This document shows positions 1,004 through 22,665 of a stretch of DNA of 31,819 nucleotides, piece after piece (the stretch's first letter is position 1; every line of letters starts with the position of its first letter). Position numbers and translations under genes: made by a program. Source of the DNA: a virus. The DNA lies in IMG/VR virus record IMGVR_UViG_3300035665_000169, positions 1 through 31,819 of that record, one strand, 5' to 3'. A model generated the notes under the pieces. It saw only the letters and a program-made list of their open reading frames with translations, ran no database searches and was not told the DNA's origin.

Positions 1004-1372
1004 TTAGGCGGCCAGGGCTTCTTCGGCAATCTCGCAGTGAATTACAAACCCGGTGAGGTAAGGCAGGCCCTTGGGGATGCCGTACTCCTTGCTGGTGGTG
1101 CGGCCAATCGTCCAGCCCATCCAGCGTTGGGTGGCTTGCTCGATGGCTTCCTTCAGGCTGGCGCCTGCGTAAAGACCGTTTTGCACATCGTCCGCAAAGT
1201 GGCGGCCATGGCGGCTGTCGAGGAAAATCCGCACCGATTCAAGCGCTTGGCTGGTGGCATCTGAGATCGTGGTCACTGCCATCGGCCAGGCAGCTTGCGC
1301 CTGCTCGTTCATCGCGCCCCAAAAGCCCCAGGCATCGTTCTGGCTGGCGGGAATTTGCGTGCTGGTGTTCAT
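1004..1372 (-). CDS. Small phage protein of unknown function (122 aa)
   Basis: A 122-residue ORF with a good Shine-Dalgarno sequence (AAGGAG, 7 nt before the ATG). It has no signal peptide and no membrane segment. It is mostly amphipathic helix with tryptophans (WGFWGAM, QRWMGW). I do not recognise a domain. It is the last of three minus-strand genes between the methyltransferase and terminase, opposite to the late genes. Its upstream region is nearly the same as that of the gene at 2116-2364, down to an identical 34-nt distance from the shared element to the ATG. The two are therefore probably expressed under the same control. Function unknown. Confidence 0.7.
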   Translation of the reverse strand: MNTSTQIPASQNDAWGFWGAMNEQAQAAWPMAVTTISDATSQALESVRIFLDSRHGRHFADDVQNGLYAGASLKEAIEQATQRWMGWTIGRTTSKEYGIPKGLPYLTGFVIHCEIAEEALAA

Positions 1373-1406
1373 CTCTGGCTCCTTGGTGTTGATTGTTGCG
1401 ACACCC

Positions 1407-1438
1407 GTAGTAACGCTCTGTTTGCGCGTGAAGCCAAG
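1407..1438 (-). promoter_or_regulatory. Upstream element, copy A (promoter candidate)
   Basis: Read on the minus strand it has two blocks, CTTGGCTTC and AGAGCGTTACTAC, separated by 10 variable nt. Both blocks and the spacing recur exactly at 2399-2430. Within the blocks TTGGCT and GTTACT are 17 bp apart, the spacing of a sigma70 -35/-10 pair, though GTTACT is a poor -10. The element ends 34 nt before the ATG at 1372. Conserved blocks with a free spacer fit a promoter better than a coding remnant. A leader RNA element is the alternative. Confidence 0.5.
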
Positions 1439-1497
1439 TTAAATGTCGATCATTTTTTGACTTTCTGCATCAGCCCAGCCGTGCCACATAAGTGTGC

Positions 1498-2049
1498 TCA
1501 AGCAATCCGATAAACACGCTCGCCGCCCTCTGGTTTTTCTGAGGTGATGGGCAAGCCCAGTTTTTTCTTGATGGCGCCGGCAAAGGTGCCGCGCACCGTG
1601 TGAGGCAACCAGCCGGTCGCCTCGCAGACCTGTGCGATGGTGGTGCCCCCGGGGTGCTTGAGCATCTCGATCACCGTGGCCTGCTTGCTCTCGGCTCGGA
1701 TACGCGGTTTGCCCTCGACGCCGACCTGGAGCCGGTGCTGTGCGGCGGCTTCGATCTCCGGATCGCGGCTCGAAACTTCAGTCACAGCCGGCAGGATGGG
1801 CGAGATCGGTGAGATGGGTGTGATGGCTGGCGCCTCGCCCTTGACGATGCTCTGTGCCGTCGGCGTGATGCGCCACTGGCCGCCGACCTGCGCGATCATG
1901 CCGCGCTGCGAGAGGCTGGCGATCATCTTGAGTTTGGCGCCACCCTTCAGTTTGAGCAGGGGTTCGATCAGGCCGTTGCTGTCCAGATGAGCGCGGGTGA
2001 TCAGGTCAAGTTGGCGTTCAGTCAATGCGGCGGATTTAGGTGTGCTCAT
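1498..2049 (-). CDS. DUF3489 family DNA-binding-like protein
   Basis: A 183-residue protein whose C-terminal ~60 residues match DUF3489 as I know it: the block from KQATVIEML through GTTIAQVCEATGW to HTVRGTFAG and KKKLGL, ending in ERVYRI. This is a helix-turn-helix-like fold. The N-terminal half (LTERQLDLITRA, then LLKLKGGAKLKMIASLSQRGMI, then WRITPTAQ) looks like a second winged-helix module, and an Ile/Pro-rich linker joins the halves. The SD AAGGA lies upstream of ATG 2049. It is the middle gene of the minus-strand trio. It lacks the upstream element that its two neighbours share, so it may be read from the promoter of the gene at 2364. Role: probably transcriptional control; the target is unknown. 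Confidence 0.8.
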   Translation of the reverse strand: MSTPKSAALTERQLDLITRAHLDSNGLIEPLLKLKGGAKLKMIASLSQRGMIAQVGGQWRITPTAQSIVKGEAPAITPISPISPILPAVTEVSSRDPEIEAAAQHRLQVGVEGKPRIRAESKQATVIEMLKHPGGTTIAQVCEATGWLPHTVRGTFAGAIKKKLGLPITSEKPEGGERVYRIA

Positions 2050-2115
2050 GGTGTTGTTCCTTGTCGTAATTGATGGGGTGATGAGATGGTGGCGTGGCCG
2101 GGATGTCCGTCTGCT

Positions 2116-2364
2116 TCAGTCTTCCCAAACCTCGGCGCCGTCCAGGGTGATCCAGAGGCGGGCATCGTTTTGCGTTGCCATCTCACGCACCGGCTTGCCG
2201 GTCTTGCGGTTGGTGCCCGACTTGCCGGTAAACCCGTAGGTCTGGCCGTCGTGGCTGACCGCCCCAGGGCCGTCCTGGTGGAAATCCACTTCGATGGTCA
2301 TCACGCCGCGTGGGCGGTGGTTGGTGTCGGTGACGGTGGTTCGAATAGTTTGTGTGGTGCTCAT
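2116..2364 (-). CDS. Small phage protein of unknown function (82 aa)
   Basis: An 82-residue ORF with a clear SD (AAGGAG before ATG 2364). The sequence is polar and beta-rich, with a threonine-rich start and a glycine-rich centre (DGQTYGFTGKSGTNRKTGK), ending in TLDGAEVWED. It has no membrane segment and no recognised domain. It is the first gene of the minus-strand trio and is divergent from the terminase gene, with about 120 bp between them. The upstream element copy B lies 34 nt from its start. It probably shares expression timing with the gene at 1004-1372. Confidence 0.7.
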   Translation of the reverse strand: MSTTQTIRTTVTDTNHRPRGVMTIEVDFHQDGPGAVSHDGQTYGFTGKSGTNRKTGKPVREMATQNDARLWITLDGAEVWED

Positions 2365-2398
2365 TTCGATCTCCTTCGCGTTGTGTGTTGCTGTGCTG

Positions 2399-2430
2399 GT
2401 AGTAACGCTCTACTCAAAGCAGAAGCCAAG
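2399..2430 (-). promoter_or_regulatory. Upstream element, copy B (promoter candidate)
   Basis: On the minus strand it contains CTTGGCTTC, 10 nt, AGAGCGTTACTAC, the same blocks and spacing as copy A at 1407-1438, and it is again 34 nt from the start codon (ATG at 2364). TTGGCT and GTTACT are 17 bp apart. Similarity continues further out on the far side (AAAT and an ATGAT after a run of A) and into the leader (GCAACA and AAGGAG). Here the spacer can form a weak hairpin (TCTGC/GTAGA), which copy A cannot. That argues against a conserved RNA structure. Confidence 0.5.
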
Positions 2431-2483
2431 CGAAATCCGGGATTTATTCATCATTTTTTTGTGTTCCCGCCCTGGAGTTGCTT

Positions 2484-4343
2484 GTGCCCGACACCCTTGA
2501 ATCTGTTGTCGAGTCGTCCTGGCAACGGGGAGTCGCACCCGACCCCATCCTTACCGTCGATGACTGGGCCAACCGGCACCGGATGCTGTCGTCGGTCGCC
2601 TCTGCCGAACCCGGGCGCTGGGCGACCAGCCGCACGCCATATCTGAAAGCGGTGATGGAGGCGCTGTCGGCGACCTCGCGGGTGGAACGGGTGGTGCTGA
2701 TGGCAGGCGCCCAAATTGGCAAGACCGAGTGCGGATTGAACTGGGTGGGTTACGTGATCCACCACGCCCCGGGACCGATGCTGTTGGTGCAACCCACGGT
2801 GGAAGGCGCCAAACGTGTCTCCAAGCAGCGGGTCGATGCGTTGATCGAGGCGAGCCCGGAACTCGCCAGCCGGGTCAAAGACCCGAGATCGCGCGACTCC
2901 GGCAACACCCAGCTGATGAAGGAATTTCCCGGTGGTGTGCTGATCATGACCGGGGCCAACTCGGCAGTCGGCCTGCGTTCGATGCCGGTGCGCTACCTGT
3001 TCCTCGACGAGGTCGATGGCTATCCGGGTGACGCCGATGGCGAAGGCGATCCGGTGGCGCTCGCCGTGCAGCGCGCTGCCACCTTTATCAATCGCAAGGT
3101 CTATCTGTGCTCGACACCGACGATGAAGGGTTTCTCGCGCATCGAGGCGGCGTTTCTGGAGTCCGACCAGCGCATCTTTGAAGTACCGTGCGACCACTGT
3201 AGTCAGCACAGCCAGGTTCAGTGGCGTGACATCAAATGGCCTGCCGGAGACATGAGCAAGGCCGCTTGGCACTGCCCGCAGTGTGAGGGCGTCCACCCTG
3301 AGTACCGTAAGCCCGCACTGTTGGCGACGGGGCGCTGGCGGGCCACGGTGGACGGCGACGGCAAGACGGTGGGGTTCCATCTGTCGAGCCTGTACAGCCC
3401 GTGGCTGACCTGGGGCGAAATCGCGCAGGAGCACCACGCTGCCAAGGACGACCCGGTGCGATTGAAAGTGTGGGTCAACACCAAGCTCGCTGAAACGTGG
3501 GAAGACCGCGAGGGCGAAACACTAGATGCCGAAGGCCTGATGGAGCGCCGCGAGTCTTATGGCCCGGCCATCCCCGCCGAAGTCGCGCTGCTGACCTGCG
3601 GCATCGACGTGCAGGATGATCGACTGGAACTGGAAGTGGTGGGCTGGGGCCGGGACGAGGAGTCCTGGTCGGTGGATTACAAGGTGCTGTGGGGCGATCC
3701 GTCAGTGCCGGACACCTGGGCCCAACTCGATAGCTACCTGTCCACCCGCTTCGAGCACGAAACCCTGGCCGCTGGCCTGACCATTGAGGCGGCTTGTCTA
3801 GACACCGGTGGCCACCACACCCTGGCGGCCTACGCCTTCTGCAAGGGCCGCGAGCGCCGCCGCATCTGGGCGATCAAGGGCGGCGCCGGTAAACGCCCGA
3901 TCTGGCCCAAGCGCCCGAGCAAGGCCAACAAGGGCAAGGTCAATCTGTTCACCGTCGGTGTGGATGCCGCCAAGGAAGCGATTTACGCCCGGCTCAAGAA
4001 GAGTGAGTCCGGCCCGGGCAGTTGCCACTTCCCAATGGATCGGGATGCGCAGTATTTCGAGCAACTGACCGCCGAGCGGATTCGCACTCGCTACGTGAAG
4101 GGTTTCCCGCAGCGTTACTGGTGGAAGACTGATGGCCGGCGCAATGAAGCGCTGGACTGCCGGGTGTACGCCTATGCCGCGCTGCACGGGCTCTTGTCGA
4201 TGGGGATCAACCTCAACCAGCGGGTGCAGGCGCTGCCGCCGCTGCCCGCCACCAAAACGTCCAGAGTGTCGGGCATCACCGCCCCCATGACGCCATCGCC
4301 GCGCCGACGCAAACGGATGGCGATTTCCTCGAACTACCTCTGA
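2484..4343 (+). CDS. Terminase large subunit, lambda gpA family
   Basis: ATP-driven DNA packaging motor and nuclease. The start chosen is GTG 2484, 6 nt after GGAG (2474-2477); an in-frame TTG at 2478 would touch the SD. This gives 619 aa, close to lambda gpA. The Walker A-like loop is GAQIGKT at residues ~75-81 and the Walker B is LFLDEVD at ~172-178. Motif III is near CSTPTMKGFS. Two CxxC pairs (CDHC, CPQC) suggest a metal-binding insert after the ATPase. The nuclease region carries GIDVQDDRLE and ACLDTGGHHT. It opens the plus-strand head operon. No small terminase gene precedes it in the window; the genes immediately upstream face the other way, so TerS is either left of base 1 or very divergent. 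Confidence 0.95.
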   Translation: MPDTLESVVESSWQRGVAPDPILTVDDWANRHRMLSSVASAEPGRWATSRTPYLKAVMEALSATSRVERVVLMAGAQIGKTECGLNWVGYVIHHAPGPMLLVQPTVEGAKRVSKQRVDALIEASPELASRVKDPRSRDSGNTQLMKEFPGGVLIMTGANSAVGLRSMPVRYLFLDEVDGYPGDADGEGDPVALAVQRAATFINRKVYLCSTPTMKGFSRIEAAFLESDQRIFEVPCDHCSQHSQVQWRDIKWPAGDMSKAAWHCPQCEGVHPEYRKPALLATGRWRATVDGDGKTVGFHLSSLYSPWLTWGEIAQEHHAAKDDPVRLKVWVNTKLAETWEDREGETLDAEGLMERRESYGPAIPAEVALLTCGIDVQDDRLELEVVGWGRDEESWSVDYKVLWGDPSVPDTWAQLDSYLSTRFEHETLAAGLTIEAACLDTGGHHTLAAYAFCKGRERRRIWAIKGGAGKRPIWPKRPSKANKGKVNLFTVGVDAAKEAIYARLKKSESGPGSCHFPMDRDAQYFEQLTAERIRTRYVKGFPQRYWWKTDGRRNEALDCRVYAYAALHGLLSMGINLNQRVQALPPLPATKTSRVSGITAPMTPSPRRRKRMAISSNYL

Positions 4344-21889: not shown

Positions 21890-22348
21890 ATGCCCAAGCT
21901 CTACATTGCTTTTCATGACAACGGGGTGGTGCGTGACATCGGCGCGCAAGGTGGCGACGGTTATCTGTCGCTGCCTGGTAAGAACCCATCAACGCTGGCC
22001 CTGCGCTACGCCCTGCAGGACGGCAAGGTCATCGACGGCTACCCCAATAAGACCGATGACGAGGTACTGCTTGCACTCAAGGCCGACCAGGACAGTCAGG
22101 TCATTGCCAGCCAAGCCAACGCGGTCAAGGTACACACCCGCCTCGATTTCATGAATCGTTTCACGATGGAGGAACTGGCCGGCATCTACACGGCCGCCAA
22201 GTCTGAAGTGCTGGTCGAGGTGTTTCTCGACAAATTGAAACTCGCCGAGCACGTCGATCTGGCCGACCAGAACACCGTCGCCGGAGTGAATGCATTGGCA
22301 GCCAGCGGCTTGCTGACCGAGGCCCGCGCCGGAGAAATCCTGCAATGA
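21890..22348 (+). CDS. Conserved tail-region protein of unknown function (152 aa)
   Basis: AAGGAG lies before the ATG. The N-terminal half (LYIAFHDNGVVRDIG, then NPSTLALRYALQDGKVIDGY) is beta-rich. The C-terminal half (LDFMNRFTMEELAGIYTAAK, ending NTVAGVNALAASGLLTEARAGEIL) is a helical pattern that I know from proteins encoded just after phage fibres. It may be a fibre assembly chaperone, by position only. It ends in ATGA with the next gene. Confidence 0.65.
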   Translation: MPKLYIAFHDNGVVRDIGAQGGDGYLSLPGKNPSTLALRYALQDGKVIDGYPNKTDDEVLLALKADQDSQVIASQANAVKVHTRLDFMNRFTMEELAGIYTAAKSEVLVEVFLDKLKLAEHVDLADQNTVAGVNALAASGLLTEARAGEILQ

Positions 22349-22665
22349 CCGGCCATCTCAAGCAAGGTCTGCTGATGCTAGCCCTCTGGCTCTTGTGTCA
22401 GCTGGCCGCCATCGTCGCCGCCCTCTGGATGCTCATCGCTGTCCTCGTCGGCTCTCGCCGCGCCTGGACGCTGGCGGTGGCCCATGACCAACTGGCCAAT
22501 GCCGCCTTCGGAGGCAGCGAGGACGAGACGATCAGTTCTCGTGCTGGCAAAGCGGCACGGGCGGGCCAGCGCTGGGGCTGCGTGTTTTGCCGCCTGCTCG
22601 ACCAACTTGACCCAGGCCACTGTGAGAAGGCCATCGAAGCGGACGAGGGTATGCCGCTGACCTGA
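22345..22665 (+). CDS. Small membrane-anchored phage protein with Cys motif (106 aa)
   Basis: The N-terminus holds one long hydrophobic segment (~8-36, LLMLALWLLCQLAAIVAALW onward), then a basic RR. The remainder carries the conserved block ISSRAGKAARAGQRWGCVFCRLLDQLDPGHCEKAIEAD (three cysteines, given here without a known fold), a pattern I have seen in phage proteins of this gene region. The topology would leave the conserved part in the cytoplasm. The function is unknown to me; a role in assembly or exclusion is only guesswork. It ends the fibre module, before the terminator at 22707. Confidence 0.65.
   Translation: MTGHLKQGLLMLALWLLCQLAAIVAALWMLIAVLVGSRRAWTLAVAHDQLANAAFGGSEDETISSRAGKAARAGQRWGCVFCRLLDQLDPGHCEKAIEADEGMPLT

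Follow-up and report, generated by a model that had tools for sequence, protein, structure and literature searches.

In phage lambda, one phage factor, CII, serves the promoters pI, pRE and paQ, of which one belongs to the integrase and which have poor −10 boxes; its sites have the form TTGC-N6-TTGC around −35. The Ogr and Delta proteins of P2 and P4 are likewise phage-coded factors, and their late-promoter sites, near −55, are common to helper and satellite. In CP4-57, a protein of the AlpA/HTH_17 type activates the integrase gene. The conserved element described here, found in an IMG/VR virus record of 31,819 nucleotides (the window), resembles the CII promoters in that several promoters, that of an integrase included, would have a poor −10; a single phage factor is hypothetical in the present case. 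The TTGC repeat was, however, not found in the aligned element copies, and the genes differ too. The likeness to the Ogr/Delta system is a conserved site before several operons together with a candidate phage-coded factor, whereas here it is the −35/−10 region that is conserved, and the genes behind it are those of the accessory cassette and the integrase. With CP4-57 the likeness is a small HTH_17 gene and an integrase operon under one control, but an HTH_17 gene of the gp9 type is missing here from 12 of 39 element-bearing records. Phage AcaML1 (JX507079.1) has the gene order seen here and four elements; the available text of two papers naming it contains nothing on them, and a search of a limited collection of papers for the motif or its genes returned no description of the element.

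The window starts within a DNA methylase gene, and a gpA-type terminase gene adjoins the cassette in which the two copies lie (Table 1). An initial annotation had described these copies as matching promoter-like elements upstream of two minus-strand genes. Both are exact matches, each copy ends 34 nt before its ATG (1373–1406 and 2365–2398), the hexamers TTGGCT and GTTACT are 17 bp apart in each, and the spacer between the blocks differs (1/10 bases identical), all as first described. Relatedness of the flanks, also claimed, held on the 3′ side (20/34 identical, shuffle p 0.0004) and hardly on the 5′ side (19/49, p 0.05). None of 100 dinucleotide shuffles contained the bipartite pattern, even at a tolerance of 3 mismatches. 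The middle gene is a DUF3489 gene and lacks its own copy, in agreement with the annotation; it starts downstream of the 82-aa gene after a gap of 66 nt, and we take the two to form an operon in which it comes second.

Table 1. The two element copies in the window, their proposed promoter features and the neighbouring genes.
Feature	Position	Strand	Basis and remarks
Element copy A	1407..1438	minus	CTTGGCTTC-N10-AGAGCGTTACTAC, exact match; before phrog_8020 gene; weight-matrix score 56.7
Copy A, proposed −35 TTGGCT	1432..1437	minus	conserved columns
Copy A, proposed −10 GTTACT	1409..1414	minus	conserved columns
Copy A, predicted transcription start (pyrimidine–purine step)	1402	minus	column statistics
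Element copy B	2399..2430	minus	CTTGGCTTC-N10-AGAGCGTTACTAC, exact match; before 82-aa gene; weight-matrix score 43.3
Copy B, proposed −35 TTGGCT	2424..2429	minus	conserved columns
Copy B, proposed −10 GTTACT	2401..2406	minus	conserved columns
Copy B, predicted transcription start	2394	minus	column statistics
122-aa gene, phrog_8020, no assigned function	1004..1372	minus	family match E 2.2e-45
DUF3489 gene, second in proposed operon; predicted tandem winged-helix, candidate regulator	1498..2049	minus	family match E 1.8e-29
82-aa gene, no family; first of proposed two-gene operon	2116..2364	minus	element-bearing relatives exist

The annotation had named a remnant of gene duplication as the finding that would speak against a promoter pair. 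The phrog_8020 and 82-aa proteins have no similarity to each other (E 11) and the proteins downstream of the element fall into 24 clusters, which rules out gene duplication as the origin of the copies. A search of phage and host genomes, which the annotation had recommended, revealed many copies before several unrelated genes: pattern scans found the element in 98 stretches of bacterial or archaeal genomes and in at least 120 of viral contigs, and large relatives mostly carry 3–8 copies each. The strict form CTTGGCTTC-N10-AGMGCG had 724 matches in the fetched DNA, 501 of them distinct. An ATG open reading frame preceded by a Shine–Dalgarno site lay within 110 nt of 459 of these 501 copies; for 457 it began 33–51 nt past the strict 25-base block, versus 69 of 3000 random positions. 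Run over 2.39 Mb, a weight matrix detected 874 sites at a score of at least 8; the reversed sequence had none. The proteins behind the strict copies formed the 24 BLAST clusters, 16 of them with at least two members, and hence the element precedes no fewer than 16 gene families that recur and are dissimilar to one another. The co-regulation originally proposed thus has support, on the evidence of sequence, in the element's conservation, its constant spacing and its position, and in the diversity of the gene families; the description as a pair was too narrow.

Among the downstream families were phrog_8020 (161), DUF3489 (103) and DUF6900 (90), and rarer kinds included DUF932/TIGR03299 and a kleA/kleC-like protein. 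The latter, from a KorC-regulated plasmid family, stands behind the element in a phage cassette (L095, 211–426). Toward the opposite end of the prophages, a family of 96-aa proteins (MSNRFKHAVIDD...; L499, 2879–3166; L498, 1217–1504) also has the element; it matched no PHROG, PADLOC or NCBIfam family. For phrog_8020, a structure model (mean pLDDT 73) had no PDB match at E ≤0.001, the sequence had no PDB match, and the PADLOC match was weak (E 7.6e-4). When compared with phages by BLAST, the upstream DNA of one relative (L036) matched AcaML1 alone, the sole named phage matching the element; against plasmids this DNA had no match, and that of the window had one trivial match.

Searches with the strict pattern force its own columns, so that conservation there arises by construction, and sets anchored on genes serve as the check. 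Relatives of the phrog_8020 protein occurred in 501 stretches of the viral collection, of which the best 80 were used; the same element or a variant preceded nearly all those with enough upstream DNA. After exclusion of loci with <150 nt upstream (4/80 for phrog_8020, 1/80 for DUF6900 and 1/62 for DUF3489), the element scored >20 before 63/76 phrog_8020 genes, the remaining 13 showing variants by eye, and before 79/79 DUF6900 genes. The corresponding count for DUF3489 genes of the window type was 4/61, which indicates that the copy-less DUF3489 gene of the window is the usual case. DUF2924 genes, found by Pfam, carried the element in 20/26 aligned cases, had a CTTG variant in four and neither in two, after 4/30 loci without a tblastn match had been dropped. 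In the variant copies of the gene-anchored sets GGCTTC is lost and just CTTG is kept. A further, motif-blind column set, from which 4/181 upstream regions without an anchor were excluded, itself forces part of the second block.

Taking the first C of CTTGGCTTC as index 0, TTGGCT occupies positions 1–6 and GTTMMT positions 24–29, with 17 bp between them, within the 16–18 bp spacing of sigma-70 promoters. The core spacer is exactly 10 bases in 457/460 distinct copies and in 239/241 copies from protein-found loci, with spacers of 11, 13 or 14 bases in a few. One such natural spacing variant, upstream of position 3001 in L071, has 14 bases through a CAAT duplication, and upstream of position 2431 in L082 the second block and leader are tandemly duplicated before a phrog_8020 gene. 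The −35 hexamer is TTGGCT, versus a TTGACA-like box; TTG recurs in almost every copy, and CTTG is what the motif-blind set retains. Six bases separate the −10 from index 36, the expected place of a start, and of 118 non-redundant copies 117 have a pyrimidine at index 35 and 111 a purine at index 36; in the motif-blind set the pyrimidine recurs in 50/51 and the purine, more weakly, in 37/51. The DNA upstream of the element is A-rich from index −30. The second position of GTTMMT is T in 116/118 copies, versus A in the consensus, so this is not a normal sigma-70 promoter; nor does a sigma-70 consensus promoter occur within 900–2700 of the window, and the −10 called poor in the initial annotation is indeed so. 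Overall, the anatomy, with its TTG-type −35, 17-bp spacing, start-site step and A-rich upstream DNA, fits a promoter, and we regard this reading as well supported by sequence.

The site spans the entire promoter region, and the winged-helix folds of DUF3489 resemble those of the MarR and ArsR repressors. The element could accordingly be an operator for a repressor that silences the cassette, with no more than part of the true promoter contacts inside it. Against this, the fixed 17-bp spacing and the start-site step fit contacts by RNA polymerase, and the alignment has no dyad symmetry common to all copies, and we consider an operator rather unlikely.

Functions other than transcription are most improbable. 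Opposite-strand coding, a structured RNA or a recombination joint might be suspected because a frame on the opposite strand reads SNALFxxEAK in many copies, because a left inverted arm, GAAGCCAAG, forms a hairpin in copies of the phrog_8020 type, and because like elements front different genes. The element, however, points at a start codon over a narrow range of distances in the 457 strict copies counted above. Coding was rejected because 16/118 copies have a stop in mid-motif with the following block still conserved, a count seeded on that block, with the same pattern in protein-anchored loci. A cis-regulatory RNA was also rejected, as RNAalifold gave 0 pairs in 68 diverse copies and Rfam no match. 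The left inverted arm is absent from the window's two copies and might terminate transcription on the other strand. An extracytoplasmic-type promoter (GAAC...TC at a 16-nt distance) could be discerned by eye in numerous copies. It is missing, however, from copy B among others, and its columns show less conservation than do the two blocks of the element.

A search of whole large records, selected among those in which these genes or the element had been found before, gave matches in 39/39, with 175 matches in total versus 13 for the backward pattern (≤3 mismatches); the sole match in one record, G030, has 2 mismatches and may be due to chance. In nine prophages with 45 elements, 42 elements lie directly before known regulon genes: DUF6900 (9), phrog_8020 (9), DUF3489 (8), DUF2924 (9, including cluster cl15) and three further kinds. 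Two of the other three precede HTH_17 genes in Cupriavidus, and one, in Nitrospira, is without a clear gene. No gene for a terminase, portal, capsid or primase is among those behind the 42 assigned elements, and a serine integrase gene comes after DUF2924. One cis element is thus found before several unrelated operons of the same phage, as in a multi-promoter regulon, and the regulon is real insofar as each phage has one site, constant in shape, in front of many unrelated genes. We read the element as the dedicated promoter of a prophage regulon that would comprise the accessory cassette and the integrase operon.

In AcaML1, from Acidithiobacillus caldus, the four elements are on the minus strand at 22273, 21141, 20463 and 3044. 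The annotated terminase small subunit, gp33 (22018–22479), overlaps a minus-strand DUF6900 gene with its element, and gp5 (2985–3176) likewise overlaps the DUF2924 element. We regard both annotations as doubtful.

Among 25 whole bacterial genomes there were 115 matches at E ≤1e-5, of which 110 fell into 27 clusters of at least two. These clusters look like prophages, and the gene content of those inspected fits. A phage-specific sigma factor or activator, as suggested by the initial annotation, is plausible because strong matches cluster in such prophage-like regions. In a further sample, 200 genomes from a single bacterial order, 22 had a match; eight of eleven single or sparse matches inspected there precede DUF2924, DUF3489, HTH_17 or another regulon gene; two of the remaining three are degenerate and one (L572) has no matrix match. 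HTH_17 genes are the exception to the confinement of the element to phages. Among 40 such genes fetched by protein similarity, about ten have the element or one of its variants shortly upstream of the ATG, seven with a site score of at least 8 and three weaker (3.7–7.5), mostly at a distance of 23–32 nt. A model built from 12 HTH_17-type sites alone re-finds the phage elements, which indicates that both sets are one kind of site. By eye, the element-bearing HTH_17 genes of L654, L655 and L656 are near apparent defence or island genes (HsdM-like, AbiEii-like, CBASS-like and integrase); a search of L654 identified HTH_17, sugar-metabolism and PLD-like neighbours.

These sites raise the question of whether an excisionase- or AlpA-like HTH_17 protein, such as AcaML1 gp9, reads the element, acting in islands on the gene that encodes it and in phages on the regulon. 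The recovery of phage elements by the HTH_17-derived model argues for such a reader, as does the presence of an HTH_17 gene in 27/39 records and in 20/20 records bearing DUF2924. Two of the seven sites scoring at least 8 (L649 and L651), however, have no clear start of an open reading frame, the fetched phage genes of the gp9 type lack an element of their own, and the 12 records without a gp9-type gene include three (G008, G031 and G033) that keep the elements and the early module. We therefore hold this reader to be doubtful.

Our preferred reading, which we think somewhat probable, is that the element is a promoter with boxes spaced by 17 bp that drives co-expressed units with a further factor, for which DUF3489 is the best phage candidate. 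RNA polymerase would contact the TTG-type −35 and an unusual −10 (the AGMGCGTTMMT region) 17 bp apart, and transcription would start about seven bases past the −10, so that the transcript would have a leader of roughly 30 nt containing a Shine–Dalgarno site. One such promoter would stand before each small transcription unit of the accessory cassette, which lies between methylase and terminase genes; many relatives would have a further one ahead of the DUF2924–serine integrase operon. With the same promoter before the cassette units and the integrase operon, these units are proposed to be expressed together. Since the −10 is poor for a housekeeping sigma factor, a further DNA-binding factor would be necessary. 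We infer promoter activity, the start site, the need for this factor and its identity alike.

DUF3489, encoded inside the regulon, ranks first among phage proteins as the candidate reader. It is present in 39/39 element-bearing records, for which 33/33 is the fairer count because six records came from a DUF3489 search, and in 10/10 sampled genomes with four or more elements. Its structure model has two well-predicted winged-helix domains and a disordered linker; fold comparison gave Z scores up to 8.2 to single winged-helix domains of the MarR and ArsR types, a common fold, and Foldseek returned nothing at E ≤0.001. The available text of one publication links DUF3489 to a SCOP superfamily, whose name is not given. 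DUF3489 is absent from 6/22 genomes with elements, and the element-like sites before HTH_17 genes in genomes lacking it are unexplained by this protein. A Pfam scan of ten AcaML1 proteins found no sigma factor, and no phage-coded factor common to all sites was found.

As no single mobile-element protein covers all sites, a host factor has to be weighed: the promoter may be read directly by the host's RNA polymerase, with a sigma factor or an activator of the host and without a phage factor. The HTH_17-type sites in genomes without DUF3489 are consistent with this, as are the three records that keep elements and early module without a gp9-like gene, and the occurrence of elements in distant hosts (Burkholderiales, Pseudomonas, Stenotrophomonas and Nitrospira). 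Strong matches are nearly confined to prophage-like clusters, though, while a host sigma factor should serve host genes too; we also know of no host sigma factor whose consensus the −10 matches. We consider direct reading by the host possible, if on the unlikely side. A bolder extension of the preferred reading, and a very unlikely one in our estimation, is a new class of promoter for mobile elements, with a −10 that is not of the sigma-70 type, in which the tandem winged-helix protein DUF3489 would bridge the two blocks over a distance of two helical turns and switch on cassette and integrase jointly, while HTH_17 islands sharing the box would listen in on the phage signal.

The arrangement of the element suggests that these viruses switch on small side genes and integration genes together. 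If it is a promoter, a short pattern would show which genes are co-expressed in a widespread and almost unstudied prophage lineage, and about 16 gene families, mostly without known function, would be tied to the integrase operon. A biochemical question is also raised, namely what reads a promoter whose −10 misfits the housekeeping sigma factor. The element model has matches in 22 of the 200 genomes sampled from one order, and the usefulness of a tested reader would accordingly be broad.
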